From: Prochlorococcus sp. AG-686-J21 | GTDB taxonomy: Bacteria; Cyanobacteriota; Cyanobacteriia; PCC-6307; Cyanobiaceae | Length of the DNA: 64,000 nt | Reading direction: 5' to 3' | NCBI GenBank assembly: GCA_003210285.1 | Contig: QCVS01000005.1 | Location: forward strand, 1-64,000 | Part shown: one piece after another, positions 25,479-37,405 of the stretch | How the letters are laid out: each line of letters begins with the position of its first letter | How positions within the stretch are numbered: position 1 is the stretch's first letter | The notes under the pieces: generated by a model | Told to the model about the DNA's origin: nothing | The model's database searches: none | The model's input: the letters and a program-made list of their open reading frames with translations, nothing else | Program-made: the position numbers and the translations under genes

Positions 25479-27293
25479 TTATAAATATCCTCTTGGAGTT
25501 AAAAATATTTCATCAACTAAAGTGGTTTTAGAATTACCAATAATAATGATTGATAGCATATCTATATCCTGAAAAGGTATGCTATCTAAATTAAAAAAGC
25601 TCTTGGATTGATTTTCCCTGCCTACTTGTCTTCCTACTAAGACTGGAGTATTTCCTGGTCTATATCCTAAGCATAGCTCTATAGCTCTTTTCAATTGCCA
25701 ATTCCTCTCAAGCGATTGTGGATTGAAAATGGCAATTACAAAGTCTCCCAATAAAGCGCCTGCAATTCTTTTTTCTATAGATTCCCAAGGGGTTAACTTA
25801 TCACTCAAGCTTATTGAACAGAAGTCATTCATCAAGGGGGCTCCACCCAGTGCCGCAGCCAACTGCATGCTACTTATTCCTGGATGTACTTCAAATGAAG
25901 GCCTAAAATCTTTATTAATTTTTTGAATTAATTCTAAAAGTAGGCCAGCCATACCATAAAAACCTGCATCTCCTGAGGATATTAGTGCTACTTTTATTCC
26001 CTCTTCAGCAAGTTTTATAGCTTTCTCACATCTCTCTTTTTCTTCAGTAAGATTGCTTTCAATCATTACTTGATCTTTTCTTTTAAGAGGTTTAATTAGA
26101 TCTAAATACATTTTGTATCCAATCCAAATTGAACATTTTGATAAAGCTTTTCTAGCATCATTTGTTAAATAGGAAATATCTCCTGGTCCACTACCTACAA
26201 CATGAATCTCACCAGTTAATGGAGAATATTGATTTTTAGATTCACAGACTGCAATAGTTACTGCTCCAAAAGTACTTTTTGAAGAATCGGTACTTTTAAA
26301 AATTATCTTTTCTTTCAATAGTTTTGAACCTTTTCCTGCAGCCAGAATGCAAGATGCCTCAGCAACTGAAGGTGTACCAATTTCATTTAGGACTACATTT
26401 GATGGGTTTGGGGTATTGATTGCGGAGAGTTCTTGAGATGTAAAAAATTTTATAGGTAAATTTTTTTCTTTTGAGATCTCTAAAATTGCCTGCTCATCTT
26501 TTTTTAAATCAACAGTTGCGAAACCAGCTATTGATAATGGAGATAAATTATTAGTGGTTAAAAAATTTTGTAAAGATTCTTCAATTAATTCTTTGCTAGT
26601 ATTTCTCTCACAACCTAAACCGATCCATAAAGTTGGTGGATGCCAAGTATTTTTATGATTACCAAATACAGATATATGAAAACTTGATTTCTTTTTCTCA
26701 TAATCTTTATCTGATAAGTGCTTAATAGTATTTCCAGCTGCAGAATTTCTCCATAAATTATTGCCTGATAATTGGCTACAAAAAATCTCTTTATTGTTAG
26801 ATTGCTTTATTACTAATTTTGACCAGTCTTTTATATCTCCAGATCTTTTCCATCCCCATTGATTTCCAAACGAGTCAATATTCAAGTAATTCTGGTCAAT
26901 TGAATTATTAGTCTCTATAATTTCGCCACCAAATAAATTACATATCTGAAATGCAATGTTTTGGATATTTGATTGATGAGCTCCAATGATAGGAACAATT
27001 TTTGATCCATTCTTATCAATAACAACTACTCCAGGATCTTTATCTTTCGAGGATAATAAAGGAGAAATAAGTCTAATTGATGCACCTACTGATCCGATAA
27101 ATATAATCAAATCCAATTTGTCCCATTTTTCTCGCAGAATTGATTTTGGCTTTATTGATAAAATATTATGGTCTTTCTTTAAAGTTTTAAGAGATGAACT
27201 CGCGACATAAATCTCATTGATAAATTCTGTTTTTATTAGTCTCTTTAAAATCTCTTGTGAAGTATCTGAAAAACCTATTGCAATTCCTTTCAA
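25479..27293 (-). CDS. cobJ: CbiG-CobJ fusion: cobalamin ring-contraction enzyme
   Basis: The 604-residue protein joins two B12-pathway enzymes. Residues ~1-345 match CbiG (precorrin/cobalt-precorrin-5A hydrolase): FIGSVGASIRLISPLL and PIIGAHQSN in the N-terminal part, and WIGLGCERNTS then TPSVAEASCILAAGK in the C-terminal part. Residues ~360-604 match CobJ/CbiH (precorrin-3B C17-methyltransferase): GEIHVVGSGPGDISYLT is the SAM-binding start and VALISSGDAGFYGMAGLL follows. Picocyanobacteria make pseudocobalamin, needed here by methionine synthase and B12-type ribonucleotide reductase. The gene is divergent from psaA. Confidence 0.92.
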   Translation of the reverse strand: MKGIAIGFSDTSQEILKRLIKTEFINEIYVASSSLKTLKKDHNILSIKPKSILREKWDKLDLIIFIGSVGASIRLISPLLSSKDKDPGVVVIDKNGSKIVPIIGAHQSNIQNIAFQICNLFGGEIIETNNSIDQNYLNIDSFGNQWGWKRSGDIKDWSKLVIKQSNNKEIFCSQLSGNNLWRNSAAGNTIKHLSDKDYEKKKSSFHISVFGNHKNTWHPPTLWIGLGCERNTSKELIEESLQNFLTTNNLSPLSIAGFATVDLKKDEQAILEISKEKNLPIKFFTSQELSAINTPNPSNVVLNEIGTPSVAEASCILAAGKGSKLLKEKIIFKSTDSSKSTFGAVTIAVCESKNQYSPLTGEIHVVGSGPGDISYLTNDARKALSKCSIWIGYKMYLDLIKPLKRKDQVMIESNLTEEKERCEKAIKLAEEGIKVALISSGDAGFYGMAGLLLELIQKINKDFRPSFEVHPGISSMQLAAALGGAPLMNDFCSISLSDKLTPWESIEKRIAGALLGDFVIAIFNPQSLERNWQLKRAIELCLGYRPGNTPVLVGRQVGRENQSKSFFNLDSIPFQDIDMLSIIIIGNSKTTLVDEIFLTPRGYL

Positions 27294-27631
27294 TTTTAAA
27301 AAGTTCTTTTATATCTTCTAAAAATTATATCTTGTTGCTGTAATTAAAGAATATGGACTGAAATATAAAAAGAAATTTAAGATTTATTCGAGCTTAATGA
27401 GTAAATATACTTAGAACCTAGTTATGTAAAGGGATTTAATAGAAATATTGAAAAGTAACAATCAATGAAACATTTGTTACTTTCCTGCATGATCAAAGAA
27501 TCTTTAGCCTATTATTTTTGGTAACGAAAATCTTAAGTTTTGATTCGCTCGTTCCTTAAAAGCCTACTATTAATAAGTAGCTTTATAGGTGTGATAAATC
27601 TACTTAAGGGTCAATTATTTAGAGGTGCTAG
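27294..27631 (+). promoter_or_regulatory. cobJ/psaA divergent intergenic region
   Basis: This 338-bp region holds the start signals of psaA. Besides the 10-bp inverted repeat at 27452-27483 I see a short hairpin CTACT/AGTAG at about 27563-27579 near the likely 5' UTR, and GAGGTG close to the psaA ATG as ribosome-binding site. Photosystem I promoters in cyanobacteria are repressed at high light through RpaB-type sites; no clean HLR1 direct repeat was found by eye. Confidence 0.45.
27452..27483. promoter_or_regulatory. 10-bp perfect inverted repeat upstream of psaA
   Basis: AAAGTAACAA (27452-27461) and TTGTTACTTT (27474-27483) are exact reverse complements separated by 12 bp. The centre lies about 165 bp before the psaA ATG. 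The arms are AT-rich and not followed by a T-run, so this is more like a dimeric regulator site than a terminator. Which protein binds is unknown. Confidence 0.5.
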
Positions 27632-29935
27632 ATGACCATTAGCCCACCAGAAAGTGGAGAAAAAGACAAAAAGATTTTGGAATCTCCCGTCAAGGCTGAT
27701 CCCAGACCTATTGATTTTGCCAAATTAGATAAACCAGGTTTCTGGTCTAGTAAATTATCCAAAGGTCCAAAAACCACAACTTGGATTTGGAATCTGCACG
27801 CAGATGCCCATGATTTTGATATACACACAGGAGATGCTGAAGAAGCTACAAGAAAAATATTCTCAGCTCATTTCGGACATCTTGCTGTCATTTTTATATG
27901 GATGAGCGCTGCATTTTTCCATGGAGCAAGATTTTCAAATTATTCAGGATGGTTAGCTGATCCTACTCATGTAAAACCTGGAGCTCAACAAGTTTGGGCA
28001 ATAGTTGGGCAAGAGATGCTTAATGGTGATTTGGGTGCTAACTATAACGGTATTCAAATAAGTTCTGGAATATTCCACATGTGGCGAGCTTGGGGTATTA
28101 CAAATGAAAGTGAATTGATGGCATTAGCTATTGGGGCAGTAGTAATGGCTGCACTAATGCTTCATGCAGGTATCTTTCACTATCATAAAGCTGCTCCAAA
28201 AATGGAATGGTTCCAAGATGTTGAGTCAATGATGAATCATCATCTCGCAGGTCTTTTAGGACTTGGTTCTTTAGCTTGGGCGGGTCATGTTATTCATATT
28301 GGTGCTCCTACAGCAGCTCTTTTAGATGCTATTGATGCTGGAAGCCCACTACTTATTAATGGTAAAGAGATAGCGACAATTGCTGACATGCCAATGCCTC
28401 ATCAATTGTGTGATCCTCAAATTGTTGGTCAAATATTTCCAGGACTTGCAAGCGGTACAGGTAATTTCTTTAGTTTAAACTGGTTTGCTTTTTCAGATTT
28501 CTTAACTTTCAAGGGAGGACTTAATCCAGTGACAGGAAGTTTATGGATGACTGATATTGCACACCATCATGTTGCAATTGCTGTTTTATTTATAATTGCT
28601 GGTCATATGTATAGGACTAACTATGGAATTGGTCATAGTATGAAAGAAATATTAGATGCACAACAAGGAGATCCTATTCTTTTCCCAGCACCTAAGGGGC
28701 ACCAAGGTCTTTTTGACTTTATGGCTGAAAGTAGACATGCACAGCTTTCTGTTAACTTAGCAATGCTCGGTTCTCTTAGTATCTTGATCTCTCATCATAT
28801 GTATGCGATGCCTCCGTATCCATATATTGCGACTGATTACATGACTGTGCTTGGTTTATTTACTCATCATATGTGGATAGGTGGTTTATTTATAGTTGGA
28901 GCTGGAGCCCATGCAGGTATAGCGATGGTAAGAGATTACGATCCAGCAAAACATATAGATAATGTTCTAGACAGGATTTTAAAAGCTAGAGATGCGTTAA
29001 TAAGTCACCTTAATTGGGTTTGTATGTGGTTAGGTTTCCATAGTTTTGGACTCTATATTCATAACGACACAATGAGAGCTTTAGGAAGACCTCAAGATAT
29101 GTTTAGTGATTCCGCAATTCAGCTTCAACCAATATTTGCTCAATGGGTTCAAAGCATTCAAGCTTCCGCCGTAGGTACTTCAATATTGGCAGGTACAGCA
29201 GAAGCCTTACCTCATAAAGCTATAAGTGAAGTATTTAACGGAAGTTTAGTTGAAGTAGGTGGCAAGGTTGCGATTGCCCCAATTCCTTTGGGAACAGCTG
29301 ATTTGATGATTCACCACATACACGCATTCCAAATACATGTAACAGTTTTGATTCTTCTTAAAGGTGTCCTTTATGCCAGAAGCTCAAGATTAATCCCTGA
29401 TAAAGCATCACTAGGGTTCAGATTCCCATGTGATGGCCCTGGTAGAGGAGGTACATGCCAAGTTTCCTCTTGGGACCATGTTTTCTTAGCACTTTTCTGG
29501 ATGTATAACTGTCTATCAATTGTTATTTTCCATTTTTCTTGGAAAATGCAAAGTGATGTTTGGGGGCTAACAGGAGGGAATTTTGCACAAAGTGCAATCA
29601 CTATAAACGGATGGTTACGAGACTTTTTATGGGCTCAGGCAGCACAAGTATTGACAAGTTATGGTCAAGCAATAAGTATGTACGGCTTAATGTTCTTAGG
29701 TGCTCACTTTATTTGGGCATTTAGCTTAATGTTCCTTTTCAGTGGAAGAGGTTACTGGCAAGAGCTATTTGAATCAATTGTTTGGGCACATAATAAATTG
29801 AAAGTTGCTCCAACAATTCAGCCAAGAGCACTATCAATTACTCAAGGTCGTGCAGTTGGTGTAACTCACTTCTTAGTGGGCGGCATAGCTACTACTTGGG
29901 CATTCTTCCATGCTCGCCTTTTCGGGATTGGCTAA
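27632..29935 (+). CDS. psaA: Photosystem I P700 apoprotein A1
   Basis: PsaA and PsaB form the heterodimeric photosystem I core that carries P700, the chlorophyll antenna and the electron-transfer chain. The 767-residue protein has eleven hydrophobic segments with many His ligands. The FX iron-sulfur site is [20 protein letters not shown] (residues ~590-609) with its two Cys. The protein starts [14 protein letters not shown] with a GAGGTG upstream. psaB follows 28 bp downstream in one transcript. Confidence 0.99.
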
Positions 29936-29963
29936 ATAACCTGAACTTCACCTTTTTAATTCA

Positions 29964-32192
29964 ATGGCAACAAAATTTCCAGCATTTAACCAGGGTCTAG
30001 CTCAGGACCCAACAACCCGCCGAATATGGTACGGCATAGCTACTGCTCATGACTTTGAAAGTCATGATGGGATGACTGAAGAAAAGCTCTATCAAAAGTT
30101 ATTTTCTACACATTTCGGACATCTAGCAATAATTGCCCTTTGGGTAGCCGGTAATCTTTTCCATATCGCTTGGCAAGGTAATTTTGAGCAATTTGTACTT
30201 GATCCAACTCATGTTCGTCCTATAGCTCATGCTATTTGGGATCCTCATTTTGGATCAGGTATTACCGAAGCAATGACACAGGCAGGAGCCAGCGGACCTG
30301 TAAATATAGCTTATTCAGGCTTATATCATTGGTGGTACACAATTGGAATGAGAACTAACGAGCAACTGTTCCAAGCTTCAATTTTTATGAGTATCTTGGC
30401 TTGTTGGACCTTATTTGCTGGTTGGCTACATTTGCAACCAAAATTCAGACCATCACTTGCATGGTTTAAAAACAACGAATCTAGATTAAATCATCATCTT
30501 GCCGTTTTATTTGGTTTTAGTAGTATTGCCTGGACAGGACATTTAGTTCACGTTGCAATTCCTGAATCTAGAGGTATTCATGTAGGTTGGGATAATTGGT
30601 TAACAGTTCTTCCTCATCCTGCAGGTTTAGCTCCTTTCTTTACACTTAACTGGGGAGCATATGCTCAGAATCCAGATACATTAGAACAAGTATTTGGAAC
30701 ATCAGAGGGTGCTGGCACAGCAATATTTACTTTTTTAGGTGGGCTTCATCCTCAAAGTGAAGCTTTATGGTTAACTGACATAGCTCACCATCATATTGCA
30801 ATAGGTACTGTATTTATAATTGCTGGACATATGTATAGAAATACCTTCGGTATTGGACATAGTCTAAAAGAAATTACAGAAGCACATAATACAAGACATC
30901 CACTAGATCCTCATAAAGGTAGTTTTGGAATTAATCATGATGGTATCTATGAAACTGTTACTAATTCTCTTCACTTTCAACTAGGTTTAGCGTTAGCTGC
31001 TCTTGGTGTAGCTACTTCCTTAGTTGCTCAACATATGGGAGCTCTTCCTTCGTATGCCTTTATTGCAAGAGATTACACGACACAGTCAGCTTTATACACC
31101 CATCATCAGTACATAGCCATGTTTTTAATGGTTGGTGCTTTTGCTCATGGAGCAATATTCTTTGTTAGAGACTATGATCCCGAACTGAATAAAGATAATG
31201 TATTGGCTCGTGTATTAGGAACAAAAGAAGCTCTTATAAGTCATTTAAGCTGGGTGACTATGATCCTAGGTTTTCATACATTAGGAATATATGTACATAA
31301 CGATGTTGTTGTAGCTTTTGGAAATCCTGAAAAACAAATTTTGATCGAACCTGTATTCGCTCAGTTTGTTCAGGCTGCTCAAGGTAAGATGATGTATGGA
31401 TTTAACGCTCTTCTTTCGGATCCTACTAGTGCAGCTAGTGTTGCCGCAAACTCTTTGCCAGGAAATCATTACTGGATGGATTTAATTAATAGACAAGATG
31501 CATTAAGTGCTTTTTTACCAATTGGACCAGCGGATTTCTTAGTTCATCATGCTATTGCTCTTGGACTTCATACAACTGCACTAATCCTTATTAAAGGAGC
31601 TTTAGATGCTAGAGGAACAAAACTAATTCCTGATAAGAAAGATTTGGGTTATGCATTCCCTTGTGATGGACCTGGTCGTGGAGGTACATGCGATAGCTCA
31701 TCATGGGATGCTATGTATCTAGCAATGTTCTGGGCTTTGAACTTGATTGCATGGGTAACTTTCTACTGGCATTGGAAACATTTAGCCATATGGCAAGGTA
31801 ATGTAGCTCAATTTAACGAGTCTGGGACTTATTTAATGGGTTGGTTTAGAGATTATCTTTGGTTAAACTCTGCTCAGCTAATTAATGGTTACAATCCTTT
31901 CGGTGTGAATTCACTTTCTGTTTGGGCTTGGATGTTCTTGTTCGGCCACCTAGTATGGGCTACTGGATTCATGTTCTTGATTTCATGGCGCGGTTACTGG
32001 CAAGAATTAATTGAGACTTTAGTTTGGGCACATCAGCGTACGCCAATTGCTAACCTTGTAGGCTGGAGAGATAAGCCGGTTGCACTTTCAATTGTACAAG
32101 CAAGATTAGTTGGATTAGCGCATTTCACAATTGGAAACATCCTTACTTTCGGAGCATTTGTAATAGCATCTACTTCAGGTAAGTTTGGATAA
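29964..32192 (+). CDS. psaB: Photosystem I P700 apoprotein A2
   Basis: The 742-residue partner of PsaA starts [20 protein letters not shown]. The FX motif is [20 protein letters not shown] (residues ~566-585), supplying the other two cysteines of the shared 4Fe-4S cluster. Eleven membrane spans and many chlorophyll-binding His residues are visible. It is followed by a clear intrinsic terminator, so psaA-psaB form a closed two-gene operon. Confidence 0.99.
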
Positions 32193-32210
32193 ATTTTTAT
32201 CAAATAATTC

Positions 32211-32239
32211 AAATCACCACATTTGTGGTGATTTTTTTG
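32211..32239 (+). terminator. Rho-independent terminator of psaAB
   Basis: AAATCACCACA (32211-32221) pairs with TGTGGTGATTT (32224-32234), with a tight loop around TT, followed by a T run (32232-32238). It lies 18 bp after the psaB stop and before the next gene on the same strand. Confidence 0.85.
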
Positions 32240-32296
32240 TTTATTTTTATTGTTCTAGTTTAAGTTAAAATTATAAGATTATTAATCGTTAATCAA

Positions 32297-33259
32297 ATGA
32301 ACAATATTACTCAGTTGATTTCTATTATTATTCCTGTTTTTAATGAAGGTGAGAGTATTGGTTACTTATTAGATGAAGTTTTGAATGTTATGCAAAATAA
32401 TAAATTAAATTGTGAGTTAATAGTAGTTAATGACGGTTCGAATGATAATACTTCAACAGTATTGGATGAATTAACTAAAAAAATTAAGGAATTATCAGTT
32501 ATTTCACTTCGAAAAAATTACGGACAAACTGCCGCAATGGCTGCAGGTTTTGATACTTCTAAGGGCGAAATTGTTATTACTTTAGATGGAGACTTACAAA
32601 ATGATCCTAATGATATTCCAAAATTAATTTCACATATAAATGAAGGTTATGATTTGATTTGTGGATGGAGATATGAACGAAAAGATAAATTAATTAGTAG
32701 GCGCATACCATCAAAAATTGCTAATAAATTGATAGCTAATGTTACTGGCCTTAAGTTGCATGATTATGGATGTTCATTAAAGGCTTTTAAAAAAGAGATT
32801 GTAGATGACATTAAACTATATGGAGAACTTCATAGGTTTTTACCAGTTTTAGCGAATATAGAGGGAGCTAAAATTAAGGAAATCAAAGTTAATCATCGAA
32901 GTCGCAAATATGGTTCTAGTAAATATGGGATTGACAGAACTTTTAGGGTTTTAATGGATTTACTTACTGTTTGGTTTATGACTAAATTTTTAACAAGACC
33001 TATGTATGGATTTGGTTTCTTTGGGATTGTGAGTATTTTAATAAGTTTTGGAATGACATCCTACTTATTTATTATCAAACTCCTAGGAAATGATATTGGC
33101 AATCGGCCGATGTTAATGTTTGCTTTGATATTGGGAATTGCTGGAGTTCAATTATTTAGTTTTGGATTATTGGGTGAACTATTAATTAGAACTTATCACG
33201 AGAGTCAAAATAGGCCAATTTATAGGATTAGAAAAATTCAAAGTACTTCTAATGACTAA
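32297..33259 (+). CDS. GT2 glycosyltransferase, polyprenyl-phosphate sugar synthase type
   Basis: The 320-residue protein is a family 2 glycosyltransferase of the DPM1/GtrB type, which load a sugar from a nucleotide donor onto a polyprenyl phosphate for later use outside the membrane. IIPVFNEGESIGYLLDEV starts the domain; VVNDGSNDNT and ITLDGDLQNDPNDI give the donor and metal-binding Asp residues. Two C-terminal hydrophobic segments (residues ~235-260 and ~272-298) anchor it. A partner such as the ArnT-like enzyme at 58315-59862 could use its product; that link is inference. Confidence 0.88.
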   Translation: MNNITQLISIIIPVFNEGESIGYLLDEVLNVMQNNKLNCELIVVNDGSNDNTSTVLDELTKKIKELSVISLRKNYGQTAAMAAGFDTSKGEIVITLDGDLQNDPNDIPKLISHINEGYDLICGWRYERKDKLISRRIPSKIANKLIANVTGLKLHDYGCSLKAFKKEIVDDIKLYGELHRFLPVLANIEGAKIKEIKVNHRSRKYGSSKYGIDRTFRVLMDLLTVWFMTKFLTRPMYGFGFFGIVSILISFGMTSYLFIIKLLGNDIGNRPMLMFALILGIAGVQLFSFGLLGELLIRTYHESQNRPIYRIRKIQSTSND

Positions 33260-33263
33260 ATCT

Positions 33264-33653
33264 TTACTTAAACTTTCTAATAAGTTCAGCTGAACGTTCA
33301 ACTATCTGTAGATCCATATCTTTTAAACCACGTTTGAGTATTGGTAAGGTAGATTTATCTGCTAATTCTTCTGCAATCTTTAAAGATTGTAATTTATCTG
33401 CTGTACTCCCTTTTGATAGTTTTAACATTTTTTCTCTAAGAGTTTTTTTATAAAACTCTGAGTACTTATTAGAGCTATTTTGATAATGATTATGTTTTGT
33501 TAATGAAGGCTTAATTATATGATTTTTATTAAGTATTTCTTGTCTTAGATATAATTTCTTTTTATTAAAAGCATTGGATATATATTTTCTCTTGAAAATT
33601 ACTATAAAAAATAGTATTAAAATAATGAGAACTATTGCGAGAAAATTCAGCAT
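33264..33653 (-). CDS. Membrane-anchored small protein with HEAT-like C-terminus
   Basis: The 129-residue protein has an N-terminal membrane span (LNFLAIVLIILILFFIVIF), a basic polar linker and a helical C-terminal part (KLQSLKIAEELADKSTLPIL, then KRGLKDMDLQIVERSAELIR) that looks like one or two HEAT-type repeats. Such repeats bind other proteins. I know no named family. It converges with the glycosyltransferase gene (4-bp gap) and is divergent from psaI. Confidence 0.6.
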   Translation of the reverse strand: MLNFLAIVLIILILFFIVIFKRKYISNAFNKKKLYLRQEILNKNHIIKPSLTKHNHYQNSSNKYSEFYKKTLREKMLKLSKGSTADKLQSLKIAEELADKSTLPILKRGLKDMDLQIVERSAELIRKFK

Positions 33654-33745
33654 ATAAAAAGTTAATAATTTTTATATCATCCAGTAATAAAATTAACACT
33701 ATTTCTCCGATAAATATTAGAGTGTTTCAAGAAGTTTAAAGAATT

Positions 33746-33859
33746 ATGCCATCTGATTTAGCAAATCTCCTTCCTCCGATCTTTGTTCCATTAATTGGGA
33801 TAGCTATGCCTGCAGTCTTTATCGTACTGATAGGAAGATTAATTACTGCAACTGATTAA
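33746..33859 (+). CDS. psaI: Photosystem I subunit VIII (PsaI)
   Basis: This 37-residue single-span protein encodes MPSDLANLLPPIFVPLIGIA then MPAVFIVLIGRLITATD. The form matches PsaI, which sits at the trimer interface and stabilises PsaL binding. It is too short for common ORF cut-offs, but its placement 29 bp upstream of psaL, as in other cyanobacteria, settles the call. Confidence 0.92.
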   Translation: MPSDLANLLPPIFVPLIGIAMPAVFIVLIGRLITATD

Positions 33860-33888
33860 ATTAACTCAAAAATAACTATCAAAAAAAA

Positions 33889-34488
33889 ATGAGCGACTTT
33901 CAAAAATCATTCTCAGAATCAACAAATTCTATTAAATTTGATGATAAATATATAGATAACTCTGTCCAGCCTGATGACATTGGGGTGGCAAACCAATGGG
34001 CTGTTAAAACTGTTTCTGATCCATGTGTTGGAAATTTAGCCACGCCAGTCAATAGCGGTTATTTTACAAAAGCTTTTATTAATAACTTACCTTTTTATAG
34101 GGAAGGGATTTCTCCAAACTTTAGAGGTTTAGAGACAGGGGCAGCATTTGGTTATCTGCTATATGGACCATTTACAATGACAGGTCCACTAAGAAATTCT
34201 GAGTTTGCAATAACTGCAGGACTTCTGGCAGCTATTGGAGCGGTTCACATAATGACAGCACTTTTAGTTCTTTATAATGCACCAGGAAAGGCACCTAATG
34301 TTCAGCCTCCAGATGCCACCGTATATAATCCTCCCGCAGACTTATTTACTAGAACAGGTTGGGCTGATTTTACAAGTGGATTTTGGTTAGGTGGTTGCGG
34401 CGGAGCCGTATTTGCATGGCTTCTTGTAGGTACTCTTCATTTAGATACAATAATGCCAATTATTAAAAATATTTGGACTGCAGGTTAA
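33889..34488 (+). CDS. psaL: Photosystem I subunit XI (PsaL)
   Basis: PsaL links photosystem I monomers into trimers. The 199-residue protein shows [20 protein letters not shown], then [18 protein letters not shown], and hydrophobic spans ending with [20 protein letters not shown]. An N-terminal extension of about 35 polar residues ([14 protein letters not shown]) is longer than in most cyanobacteria, as known for Prochlorococcus. psaI lies directly upstream. Confidence 0.97.
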
Positions 34489-34537
34489 CTTCACATCCAA
34501 AAAAATTAAAAATAAAAAATAAAAATTCTATAAAAAA

Positions 34538-35293
34538 TTATCTAATAGCTTTATTCCATCTGTATGATCTTGTGATTCTTCCTGCTGAAATAAGTTTTGA
34601 TTGATAATGCAGAGAAATTTTGTCATTAGTGTCTTTTAAAGTGTCTATTCCTATGCCATTTCTTCCGTAATCTTTACCCGAACTATGGTAATAAAATCCA
34701 TCTCCTTTATAAATACCAACATGATCACATTTATTTTTGTTTCCAAAAAATAAAATATCTCCTTTTTTAAGTGATTTATTTTTTTCTTTGAAATTGAAAA
34801 TATGTCTACAAAAACTTTTAATTTGATAAGAATCTCTAGGTATATAAATTTTATGATTTAAAAAAGCCGTTTGAATTAAGCCAGAACAGTCAAAATTAGG
34901 ACCCAACGTACCACCCCAAAGATATATATTTTTTACCTTAGATCGATCTTTTATCCAATTAAGAACTAATGGAATTTTTGCTTTTATTAACATTTGATCA
35001 GATTCAACAAAACTGTTTTTAAGATCAAATCTCTCAATAAATAATTTATCTAAATCAATCCAGCATATATAACCATCTTCATAAAATTGAACTAATATCC
35101 TCGATAATTTATTTTTCCTCTGATAAAGACTTGGATAAATAAGTCTAAAAACTCTATTTTTGATTATTTCCGTCACTAAATTATTTTCAGTTTCATTTTG
35201 ATATCCAGAAATATTAATTTTTACTTTCCACCAAATAGTGTTTGAAAAATTAGTTTGCTTAAATAGTGAGATAGGGTCTATATGTTCTTTCAT
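34538..35293 (-). CDS. NlpC/P60 (C40) cell-wall peptidase
   Basis: The 251-residue protein carries a C-terminal NlpC/P60 domain. The catalytic Cys is in NFDCSGLIQTAFL, the His in CDHVGIYKGDGFYYHSSG, and GDILFFG is the usual strand between them. The first ~120 residues resemble the SH3-like bacterial domain of cyanobacterial C40 enzymes (the AvPCP type), which cleave gamma-D-Glu-diamino-acid bonds in peptidoglycan stems. No signal peptide is evident, so export or a recycling role is unclear. Its start overlaps the 5' end of the divergent serine hydrolase frame. Confidence 0.85.
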   Translation of the reverse strand: MKEHIDPISLFKQTNFSNTIWWKVKINISGYQNETENNLVTEIIKNRVFRLIYPSLYQRKNKLSRILVQFYEDGYICWIDLDKLFIERFDLKNSFVESDQMLIKAKIPLVLNWIKDRSKVKNIYLWGGTLGPNFDCSGLIQTAFLNHKIYIPRDSYQIKSFCRHIFNFKEKNKSLKKGDILFFGNKNKCDHVGIYKGDGFYYHSSGKDYGRNGIGIDTLKDTNDKISLHYQSKLISAGRITRSYRWNKAIR

Positions 35294-36196
35294 AAAATGT
35301 CTTTTTATTGTTTACAAGAAGAAATGGGTTTAGCCTTAAATGATATTTTAGAGAGAGTTTGCTCTAACAATATAGAAAATTTAAGGAATGATATCGCAAT
35401 AACTTGGATCAATTATAAAAGTGAAAACAATCATATAAATAAAGGCTTTGGATTTGGTATCAATAATAGAAAACTCATTTATCCTGCAAGCATCGTAAAG
35501 CTAATTTATGGCCTTGCTGCATACTCATGGATTGATACAAAAAAAATATTATTAACCCAAGAAATAAGTGATGCAGTCAACAAAATGCTTTTTTACTCAA
35601 GTAATGATGCAACAAGCTTTTTAATCGATATTATCACTGGGACTACAAGCGGTCCATGTATAGAAGGAGATCCTTGGGAGAATTGGAAATATCAAAGATC
35701 AATAATTAATGATTGGTTAAAAGAGTTTAATTGGAATGAATTAAATGAAATAAATTGCTGCCAAAAAACTTGGGATGATGGACCATTTGGTCGAGAAAAA
35801 GAATTTTACGGAGCTGAAAACAGTAATAGAAATATGATGACAACAGATGCCACTGCTAGGATTTTGGAGGAGATAATGATAAAGATTGATTATCAAAAAG
35901 ATAATTTAGATTTAAGAAGTTTTTTAAAAAGAAATTTAAATAAGAATGTTCTTAATAATGATCCTCTTAATCAAGTAGATGGTTTTTTAGGAGAGGGATT
36001 ACCGGAGAATATTAATTTCTGGAGTAAAGCAGGCCTCATGTCACAAGCTAGACATGATGCTGCTTGGTGGGTTAATAACGACTCTGTACAGACTTTATTA
36101 GTTGTTTTTGGTAATGGAGAAAAATACTTCAAAGATGAGACCTTATTTCCCGAAATAGCAAAGGCTGTGTATAAATATAATAATAATTTTGTTTGA
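35282..36196 (+). CDS. Beta-lactamase-like serine hydrolase
   Basis: The 304-residue protein shows three active-site motifs of class A beta-lactamase and DD-peptidase folds: SxxK (SIVK, residues 70-73), SxN (SSN, 106-108) and KxG (KAG in FWSKAGLMSQ). It may act on peptidoglycan peptides or be a general esterase. No signal peptide is seen. The first ATG overlaps the divergent C40 gene by 12 bp; ATGs at 35297 or 35324 would remove this overlap and are plausible. Pairing with a C40 peptidase suggests shared cell-wall work. Confidence 0.75.
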   Translation: MFFHKMSFYCLQEEMGLALNDILERVCSNNIENLRNDIAITWINYKSENNHINKGFGFGINNRKLIYPASIVKLIYGLAAYSWIDTKKILLTQEISDAVNKMLFYSSNDATSFLIDIITGTTSGPCIEGDPWENWKYQRSIINDWLKEFNWNELNEINCCQKTWDDGPFGREKEFYGAENSNRNMMTTDATARILEEIMIKIDYQKDNLDLRSFLKRNLNKNVLNNDPLNQVDGFLGEGLPENINFWSKAGLMSQARHDAAWWVNNDSVQTLLVVFGNGEKYFKDETLFPEIAKAVYKYNNNFV

Positions 36197-36198
36197 TA

Positions 36199-36411
36199 TT
36201 AATTTAAATCATCTAAGAAATCTCTATCTAATTTATTTGTATAGGCTTCGTAAGGTAACATCATAACCTCAGCAAAATCTAAGTCATTCAGAATCCATTC
36301 TTTATATTCAGCTATTAAACTATTTCTATCTTTATGATCTAATTCATGAATGCGTAATGCAGTATCTTTAAGGTTTTCTTTAATCAGGTTTTCAAGTTCT
36401 TTTTTATTCAT
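36199..36411 (-). CDS. Small acidic protein coupled to recombinase-like gene
   Basis: I place the start at the ATG at 36411 (70 residues, MNKKELENLIKENLKDTALR); it lies one base after the TGA of the upstream recombinase-like gene, with GGAGAAG about 11 bp before it. An ATG at 36429 would add six residues and overlap that gene. The protein is helical, acidic and Leu-rich (YKEWILNDLDFAEVMMLPYE). I recognise no family. The coupling suggests the two products work together or share regulation. Confidence 0.6.
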   Translation of the reverse strand: MNKKELENLIKENLKDTALRIHELDHKDRNSLIAEYKEWILNDLDFAEVMMLPYEAYTNKLDRDFLDDLN

Positions 36412-36412
36412 A

Positions 36413-37099
36413 TCAGCTTGCTTCTCCATCTAAAATTATTCTTCTAATTGTTGATAAAGCAATTCCAGTTTGAGTTCTGATTGATCGATATGAGCAACCC
36501 TCATTACGTAACCTCATGACTAATGATTCTTTTAAAGGACTAATTTTCGGTCTGCCACCTAAATTATTTCCATTTAATCTTCTTTGCGAAATAAGTTCTT
36601 TTTTCCTTTCTCCCAAACACTCATTATCTAAATTATCTAACTCATATAAAATATTAAAGATAGACAAAGATATCTCTGATGAATGTTTGGGGGATAAAAA
36701 ACCAGATAAAGTTCTCAACCTAATATCATTATTCAAGAGTTTATGAATTGTTTTTATACATTCATTCCTATTAGCAAATGCTCGATCTAGTTTTGTTACG
36801 ACTAATTCATCTCCTTTTGATAAATAATTTAGAGCTTTTTTAAGTTCGGGTTTTGTTTCTTCATCTAAACTTACGATTTCAGAAAATATTAAGCTGCAAC
36901 CCTCATTTTTAAGGCATGTTATTTGTTCTTTTAAGTAGTCAAATTCACTATCTATAGCTCTTGCATATCCAATGGTTTTAGATTTTTTATTTTTTTCAGA
37001 TAAAAGAAAACGTTTTCTTTTAAATTTAATAGTCAATGTTTTAATACATATATTTTTAACTGTATCAAATACTTTAAAAAAAAACACTTTATAGAACAT
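36413..37099 (-). CDS. Serine-recombinase-like protein, catalytic serine missing
   Basis: The 228-codon frame has a resolvase/invertase-type N-terminal domain followed by a Gly-Arg-Pro hinge (NNLGGRPKISP) and a helix-turn-helix (MRLRNEGCSYRSIRTQTGIA, LSTIRRII). In active enzymes the motif is YARVSTxxQ with a nucleophilic Ser; here it reads IGYARAIDSEFDYL, with Ile in the Ser position. The KLDRxxR motif reads KLDRAFANRN, so its second Arg is also displaced. It is therefore probably a DNA-binding regulator rather than a recombinase. The first ~40 codons are AT-rich and the true start may be downstream. Confidence 0.7.
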   Translation of the reverse strand: MFYKVFFFKVFDTVKNICIKTLTIKFKRKRFLLSEKNKKSKTIGYARAIDSEFDYLKEQITCLKNEGCSLIFSEIVSLDEETKPELKKALNYLSKGDELVVTKLDRAFANRNECIKTIHKLLNNDIRLRTLSGFLSPKHSSEISLSIFNILYELDNLDNECLGERKKELISQRRLNGNNLGGRPKISPLKESLVMRLRNEGCSYRSIRTQTGIALSTIRRIILDGEAS

Positions 37100-37148
37100 T
37101 ATTCTGTAATAAAATATAGAATATTACCTAAAAAGTAATAGAATATTA
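37092..37148. promoter_or_regulatory. Three TAGAAYATTA direct repeats at the recombinase-like gene start
   Basis: TAGAACATTA (37092-37101), TAGAATATTA (37117-37126) and TAGAATATTA (37139-37148) lie in the same orientation at spacings of 25 and 22 bp. The first copy covers the annotated ATG of the recombinase-like gene. Related TTCTA/TTCTG elements in the other orientation follow at about 37174-37193. Spacing near two helical turns suits repeated protein binding; autoregulation is inference. Confidence 0.4.
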
Positions 37149-37405
37149 TGTATTTAAACTATACTAAAAATGACGTTCTGTATATTGTTCTATTTTATGT
37201 TATGAGAACAATTAGCACATTATATAATTAGTTTGTATTGGAAAATACTAAAAAAATTTAATACTTCTTTTTTTTTTTCTAAAAGTAATATTTAAATTTC
37301 TTCCAGATTTAATTAGAAATTTAATTGCTATATTGAAGTAAATAAAACATAGTAAAATTTGATTTTTTGATTAAAATTAGGGTTAATTAAGTTGAATAAA
37401 TTAAT
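37100..37405. other. AT-rich divergent region between recombinase-like gene and lipA
   Basis: The 306-bp stretch holds no ORF of note. It contains the TAGAAYATTA repeats near its left end, an AT-rich centre with a T11 run (about 37269-37279), and the promoter area of lipA at the right. No hairpin-plus-T-run terminator or tRNA is visible. Confidence 0.5.

Follow-up and report, generated by a model that had tools for sequence, protein, structure and literature searches.

A resolvase-like Prochlorococcus gene that has lost its catalytic residues and was probably kept as a DNA-binding autoregulator

The Tn3 resolvase, TnpR, represses transcription of its own gene and of tnpA from the res sites, and in the serine recombinase family the long-helix region carries the contacts between subunits. 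Catalytic residues are designated here as S10, R8, R45, R68, R71 and D67, which we take to be gamma-delta resolvase numbering. In the window, a 64,000-nucleotide stretch of Prochlorococcus sp. AG-686-J21 (contig QCVS01000005.1, positions 1 to 64,000), a gene of the resolvase/invertase type, here named X, is followed by a small gene, sml (Table 1). A first-pass annotation had read X as a recombinase without chemistry that was kept as a DNA-binding regulator, and the shared loss of residues, the conserved sml and the predicted sites described below support that reading at the level of sequence. We regard X as probably a resolvase without chemistry that was retained as a DNA-binding autoregulator of the X-sml operon. 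The label HL is used for the window's own genus, taken to be high-light Prochlorococcus from the MED4 match and named loci, and Ser+ denotes copies with R8, S10, R68 and R71. The gene names psaA, psaB, psaL, lipA, gltB and cobJ were assigned by sequence appearance, and NlpC/P60, beta-lactamase-like protein (bla2) and YCII were taken from Pfam.

Table 1. Positions of X, sml and candidate control elements in the window, and chemistry-less copies in other genera.
Feature	Positions	Strand	Basis
X, catalytically dead small serine recombinase (resolvase/invertase type), 207 aa	36413..37036	minus	profile, fold, relatives' starts, catalytic-site counts
Ile28 codon, position of the nucleophilic Ser	36953..36955	minus	alignment with Ser+ relatives
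Lys62, position of R45	36851..36853	minus	K in 95/95 HL-type proteins
Ala88, position of R71	36773..36775	minus	R in 0/95 HL-type proteins
Helix-turn-helix part of X, residues 160-207	36416..36559	minus	dN/dS, identity, structure model
sml, small acidic, probably helical protein, 70 aa	36199..36411	minus	conserved order; homologue behind Ser+ X
Promoter-like TTGATA-16-TATTAA directly before the TTG start	37041..37068	minus	by eye; not picked by the consensus scan
Near candidate site TGTTCTATAAAGT, 62 bases upstream of X start	37086..37098	minus	matrix from relatives' sites
Far candidate site TGTTCTCATAACA, 174 bases upstream of X start	37198..37210	minus	matrix from relatives' sites
Three TAGAAYATTA repeats, only the first overlapping a conserved site	37092..37148	plus	counts in window and relatives
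Chemistry-less other-genus copies: L077, L133, L161, L170, L246, L251, L252, L253, L255, L257, L258, L262, L263, L264, L271

X matches the Pfam Resolvase family (PF00239) with 57 bits against a cut-off of 23.3 (E 3.1e-15), and the AlphaFold2 model, a check proposed with the first-pass annotation, showed a serine recombinase fold (pLDDT 84) with Tn3 resolvase on site III, Sin and gamma-delta resolvase as best fold matches. The frame is open and includes a helix-turn-helix (HTH), as had been claimed, on which the Pfam HTH_7 model scored 13.4, under its cut-off of 23.8. Among the features by which a small serine recombinase is recognized, X has the resolvase N-terminal domain, the fold and the C-terminal HTH, and lacks the nucleophilic Ser (S10) and the full Arg cluster R8/R45/R68/R71. 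An earlier start, the ATG at 37099, gave way to the TTG at 37036, because many relatives carry in-frame stops between the counterpart of that ATG and the conserved part of X, and because a start codon stands at one homologous place in all 82 loci with X and lipA (TTG in 80, GTG in 2; 79 distinct intergenic sequences). The N-terminal coding sequence of X contains a perfect 20-base palindrome (37009-37028), which was set aside because many of the relatives listed lack it.

According to the excerpted text of PMC7852597, PMM1515 of strain MED4 is annotated as 'Site-specific recombinase'; the primer printed there for PMM1515 encodes ELDNLDNECLGE of X, and the printed coordinate falls inside G015:C1:1456993-1457676, so that G015 is probably MED4. 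X is, by these sequence matches, the orthologue of PMM1515, whose annotation implies an enzyme, yet X is without the catalytic set. Among the matches listed for the open-licence literature (titles and abstract starts), there was no paper on X or PMM1515 as a regulator, nor on Ser-less resolvases in Prochlorococcus. In 11 of 12 HL genomes tested, X is the sole PF00239 gene, and there it is therefore not a helper subunit of another such recombinase. One HL genome (G050) carries, besides X, three more resolvase-domain genes with better scores, at G050:C1:142280, 629948 and 1575885. Matches that cover only the HTH of X were seen in short open frames of 43-119 aa (G214:C9, G282:C27, G219:C32 and G210:C21), which may be HTH-only remnants or small DNA-binding proteins. 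For a phage source of X, 138 phage records matched, those displayed being mostly enterobacterial invertases with identity of at most 31%.

The loss of catalytic residues is shared across the genus. Ser+ relatives have Ser where X has I28, and the second Arg of the LDRxxR motif is gone in X (LDRAFANR), so that both substitutions named in the first-pass annotation were confirmed. The homologue alignment it had called for was made with 95 distinct HL-type proteins, defined as those adjoining lipA or preceding sml. The Ser position holds T in 55, I in 36, S in 2, V in 1 and A in 1; the R45 position is Lys in all 95, and the R71 position is never Arg (Lys 61, Ser 26, Ala 4, Tyr 2, Cys 1, Leu 1). 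R8 and R68 are still present in 95/95 and D67 in 94/95. The two HL copies with Ser likewise lack R45 and R71. The concern that this copy might be a lone mutant within a Ser-bearing set does not apply within the genus, the loss being common to the 95 distinct proteins. In other genera, R8, S10, R68 and R71 are intact in 61 of 80 distinct copies. In the tree, the HL copies cluster together with full support at the end of a long branch. Strand cleavage would, in the reading that we prefer, have been lost before the HL genus diversified. That X is still a recombinase using another nucleophile, e.g. Thr, is suggested by the Thr in 55 and the Ser in 2 of the 95 proteins, but we hold it to be scarcely credible, with Ile in more than a third of the proteins (36/95) and both R45 and R71 replaced throughout.

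Loss of chemistry could also mean decay. The Ser position accepts diverse residues (T, I, S, V, A) and the catalytic part evolves faster than the HTH, as expected of a recombinase that is decaying without function. X was nevertheless matched (E 0.001 or better) in 161 of 200 genomes of the HL genus and in 64 of the 67 small HL genomes that are at least 90% complete. A near-complete genome with no X match, G038, is also without bla2 and without the close lipA copy, so the X locus is probably missing from its assembly. After the TTG, no internal stop was found in the fetched HL copies, five copies with stops or shorter than 150 aa having been dropped. The dN/dS ratio (Nei-Gojobori, related pairs pooled) was 0.225 for X, similar to its neighbour bla2 (0.21), and 0.193 for sml, 0.194 for YCII and 0.093 for lipA. 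Within X it was 0.28 for the first 22 residues, 0.24 for the catalytic part, 0.43 for the long helix and 0.055 for the hinge and HTH (residues 156-207), placing the HTH under tighter constraint than lipA. Against this evidence decay is highly improbable, and X is, as judged from the substitution ratios, under purifying selection that acts most strongly on the HTH. Between HL and Ser+ copies, identity is 70% in the HTH, 34% in the catalytic part and 23% in the long helix. Among Ser+ copies it is 78% in the HTH vs 62% in the catalytic part, so a strongly kept HTH is not peculiar to HL, whereas the wide gap between HTH and catalytic part is.

Computation supports the residue loss and the purifying selection, and likewise the conserved gene pair and the conserved sites. 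The sml gene stands directly behind X in 86/86 fetched HL loci, the distance from the X stop to its ATG being 1 base in 72 loci, 4 in 9 and 0 in 3, with an overlap in 2. In the window, the ATG (36411-36409) begins one base past the X stop (36415-36413), a GGAG lies 12 nt upstream (by eye) and the product has 17 Asp/Glu vs 10 Lys/Arg in 70 aa (hand count), in agreement with the small acidic protein and ribosome-binding site first described. The possibility that the small ORF might be unconserved is answered within the genus by the 86 loci. The structure model of sml was helical and of low confidence (pLDDT 70, pTM 0.38). A homologous small gene, its start codon in overlap with the Ser+ X stop, was found in another Prochlorococcus genus (L061, L062, L080 and L127-L130; profile comparison probability 93%, E 4e-7, from a single comparison of shallow profiles), and the two families have E-W and M-P positions in common. 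The X-sml pair is therefore probably older than the loss of chemistry. Weak look-alikes of sml occur in other genomes (E about 1e-6 to 1e-3), and no match was found in phage records. A partnership of the two proteins is suggested by the conserved gene order, and modulation of X by sml is our guess.

Copies of X in other genera lead a run of small ORFs, the first of which often has a start codon overlapping the X stop and belongs to different families in different loci, giving the appearance of a modular array behind a serine recombinase. Such runs were seen at L061, L062, L064, L067, L069, L080, L127-L132, L138, L140, L142, L143, L145, L151 and L153.

The upstream region was examined for sites that X might bind. 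TAGAAYATTA occurs 5 times in the window vs 1.25 expected (0/100 shuffles reached 5), with three of the 5 copies upstream of X. In the 79 homologous intergenic regions, 68 have no copy, nine have one, one has two and one, the window's own, has three. The copy at 37092-37101 overlaps the conserved near site. The operator that the first-pass annotation had drawn from the three repeats therefore stands only in part: two of the three repeats are not conserved, but the region has two candidate operator-like sites that resemble those upstream of Ser+ relatives. Upstream of other-genus relatives, TGTTCCAwwAAs gave 20 forward matches in 19 regions (L076 left out) vs 0.22 in shuffles. In a wider other-genus set, 26 of 50 copies carry at least one such site and 19 carry two, spaced by 80-82 bases in 13 of the 19; the other 24 copies are without this site type altogether. 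Of 24 other-genus loci scanned, 18 have a third copy, inverted and placed at the start codon, and five other matches lay elsewhere in these loci; no counterpart of this inverted site, which many Ser+ relatives have close to the start, was found in HL.

A matrix built from 31 other-genus sites alone placed its best match at about -174 or -62 in 67 of 78 HL regions, the intergenic sequence of L116 having been left out of the 79 for its length. Restricting the search to the ranges -75 to -50 and -200 to -150 located the near site at -61 to -64 in 77/78 and the far site at -172 to -176 in 75/78. The median best HL matrix score is reached by 7% of shuffles, and the HL regions are related, not independent; the two-site sum gave p 0.001 to 0.062 in seven HL regions tested. 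In the early-branching L092 and L093, the TTGATACAGT block is kept and the near site is degraded. In the window, the far site forms the left arm of TTGTTCT-N13-AGAACAA. A scan of the own genome with the 13-base motif returned 3 matches vs 9 for the reversed control, the two others lying inside ORFs; the motif is not enriched there, so no regulon was seen. A search of the same genome for a dispersed regulon found the 21-base near block, with up to 3 mismatches, once. The promoter-like block is conserved in the 79 intergenic sequences, largely so in L092/L093, and since it directly precedes the TTG, the X transcript may be nearly leaderless. A consensus promoter scan returned 8 sites vs 9.5 expected, and Rfam gave no match at gathering scores.

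Taken as a mechanism, X would have been retained as a sequence-specific DNA-binding protein whose C-terminal HTH would recognize sites of the TGTTCYAwwAAs type near -62 and -174, next to its own promoter, and it would control, most likely repress, its own two-gene operon X-sml. The retained resolvase fold may serve to form dimers or tetramers, possibly looping the two sites. We infer binding, autoregulation and looping from the conserved features above, and the long helix of HL X, as its least constrained part, counts against the contribution of fold contacts. The same helix bears on an architectural role, in which X forms a resolvase-like synapse on two sites without cutting, looping or marking the stretch, with gene control coming second. 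The two window sites, 112 bases apart, the fold and long helix that are kept, and resolvase-DNA complexes among the best fold matches are consistent with this; the weak constraint on the helix and its low identity to Ser+ copies are not, and we consider such a role unlikely.

The gene order in the window is cobJ, psaA, psaB, a glycosyltransferase-like gene, psaL, NlpC, bla2, sml, X, lipA, YCII and gltB. Among the 86 fetched HL loci, 82 have lipA as the divergent neighbour of X, and two of the remaining four end at a contig edge; these counts hold a few duplicates, some genomes being present twice (e.g. L001/L031 and L005/L032), and the loci are best matches, not a random draw, with 40 further HL places picked by hand. 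This pairing, together with the far site and the conserved AGAACGTTATTTTTAATACAG block in the shared X/lipA region, might indicate that X regulates lipA. The history of the locus argues otherwise. In five genomes of other genera (L231, L232, L233, L235 and L236), the order is gltB-YCII-lipA-cobJ-psaA-psaB-...-NlpC-bla2, and no X match was found in the 19.5-19.8 kb taken from each. In a sixth genome, G078 (L234), X-sml lies beyond bla2, with lipA about 11 kb away in its other-genus place. Compared with these five genomes and with G078, the window has the block from cobJ-psaA-psaB to X (25479-37036) inverted relative to lipA-gltB, and the inversion placed X beside lipA. X-sml seems, from this comparison of gene orders, to have arrived next to bla2, its divergent pairing with lipA being secondary, which weakens the idea that X exists to control lipA. 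An AGAACG/CGTTCT block that appears similar by eye is still upstream of X in L234, and other-genus copies have a far site with no lipA alongside. Control of lipA by X is accordingly improbable in our judgement, and autoregulation of X-sml remains the preferred reading.

Several other features of these loci were observed. In the window, the longest ORFs of the NlpC/P60 gene and of the divergent beta-lactamase-like gene overlap by 12 bases (35282-35293); with the later Met at 35297, which relatives suggest, just a few bases separate the two start codons. In other genera (L231, L233, L235 and L236), bla2 has close to its 3' side a long ORF that encodes Ala/Glu/Lys-rich repeats. A tRNA gene (Ser-cga, Cys, Thr/Tyr and others) was found, in an island-like arrangement, in 20 of 48 scanned loci with an other-genus X, a count made without control and with some genomes represented twice (L062, L063, L066, L067, L070-L072, L074, L075, L077, L079, L080, L136, L139, L140, L142, L150, L151, L155 and L161).

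Chemistry-less copies are also present outside the genus. In fifteen copies, those named being from Prochlorococcus single-cell genomes, the catalytic part is ruined and the HTH preserved. Identity to the Ser+ consensus in the catalytic part and the HTH averaged 67/78% for intact, 39/78% for HL and 46/81% for degenerate copies; for this comparison the HL copies were thinned from 94 to 24, L259, L261 and L273 (internal stop) were left out, and of the 19 copies in the degenerate set one is partial and three have one or two residues altered. On a tree without those four rows, the chemistry-less state requires at least 5 changes, two of which are forced by well supported branches. A single origin of all 19 chemistry-less tree rows was rejected (p-AU 0.0015), as was joining HL with L161 (p 0.0035); a single origin without L133 and L161 (p 0.107) and HL joined with L133 (p 0.18) were not, the tested groups having been defined with the first tree already in view and long branches being involved. 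Rejection of one common origin points to at least two losses, i.e. in other genera chemistry disappeared, by these sequence trees, at least one further time. Paired sites are still present at L133 and L161. It is quite possible that picocyanobacteria have more than once turned this small serine recombinase family into regulators, with the chemistry lost, the HTH kept, the multi-site landing region kept in HL and some other copies, and small genomes left with a local transcription factor and its inherited small partner.

Nearly all genomes of this very abundant photosynthetic lineage of the surface ocean have X, whose MED4 orthologue is labelled as an enzyme. Should X prove to be a regulator, a recombinase would have supplied one to a streamlined genome. 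The active relatives and the other chemistry-less copies form a natural series (active, half-dead, dead) for the question of how a recombinase becomes a transcription factor. The Gin/Hin DNA invertases are related to X by Gin, which gave its best PDB sequence matches, and by PHROG 125 'DNA invertase', its best phage family; X differs from them in having lost the chemistry. The Ser+ small serine recombinases of other Prochlorococcus genera, Synechococcus and relatives (L047-L060 and many of L126-L169) have an HTH about 70% identical to that of HL X, share its site type in about half of the copies and, in one genus, have a homologous next gene, but they keep R8, S10, R68 and R71 and are located elsewhere. 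The Tn3/gamma-delta TnpR has the fold and domain order of X, and on res it has several sites upstream of its own gene, as do other-genus copies of X, most of the 24 loci scanned there having the inverted third at the start codon. HL X differs from TnpR in lacking Ser, R45 and R71, in having no transposon in view and in the number of sites found, two and not three. By this analogy, self-repression of Tn3 TnpR from res is the closest working model for X.
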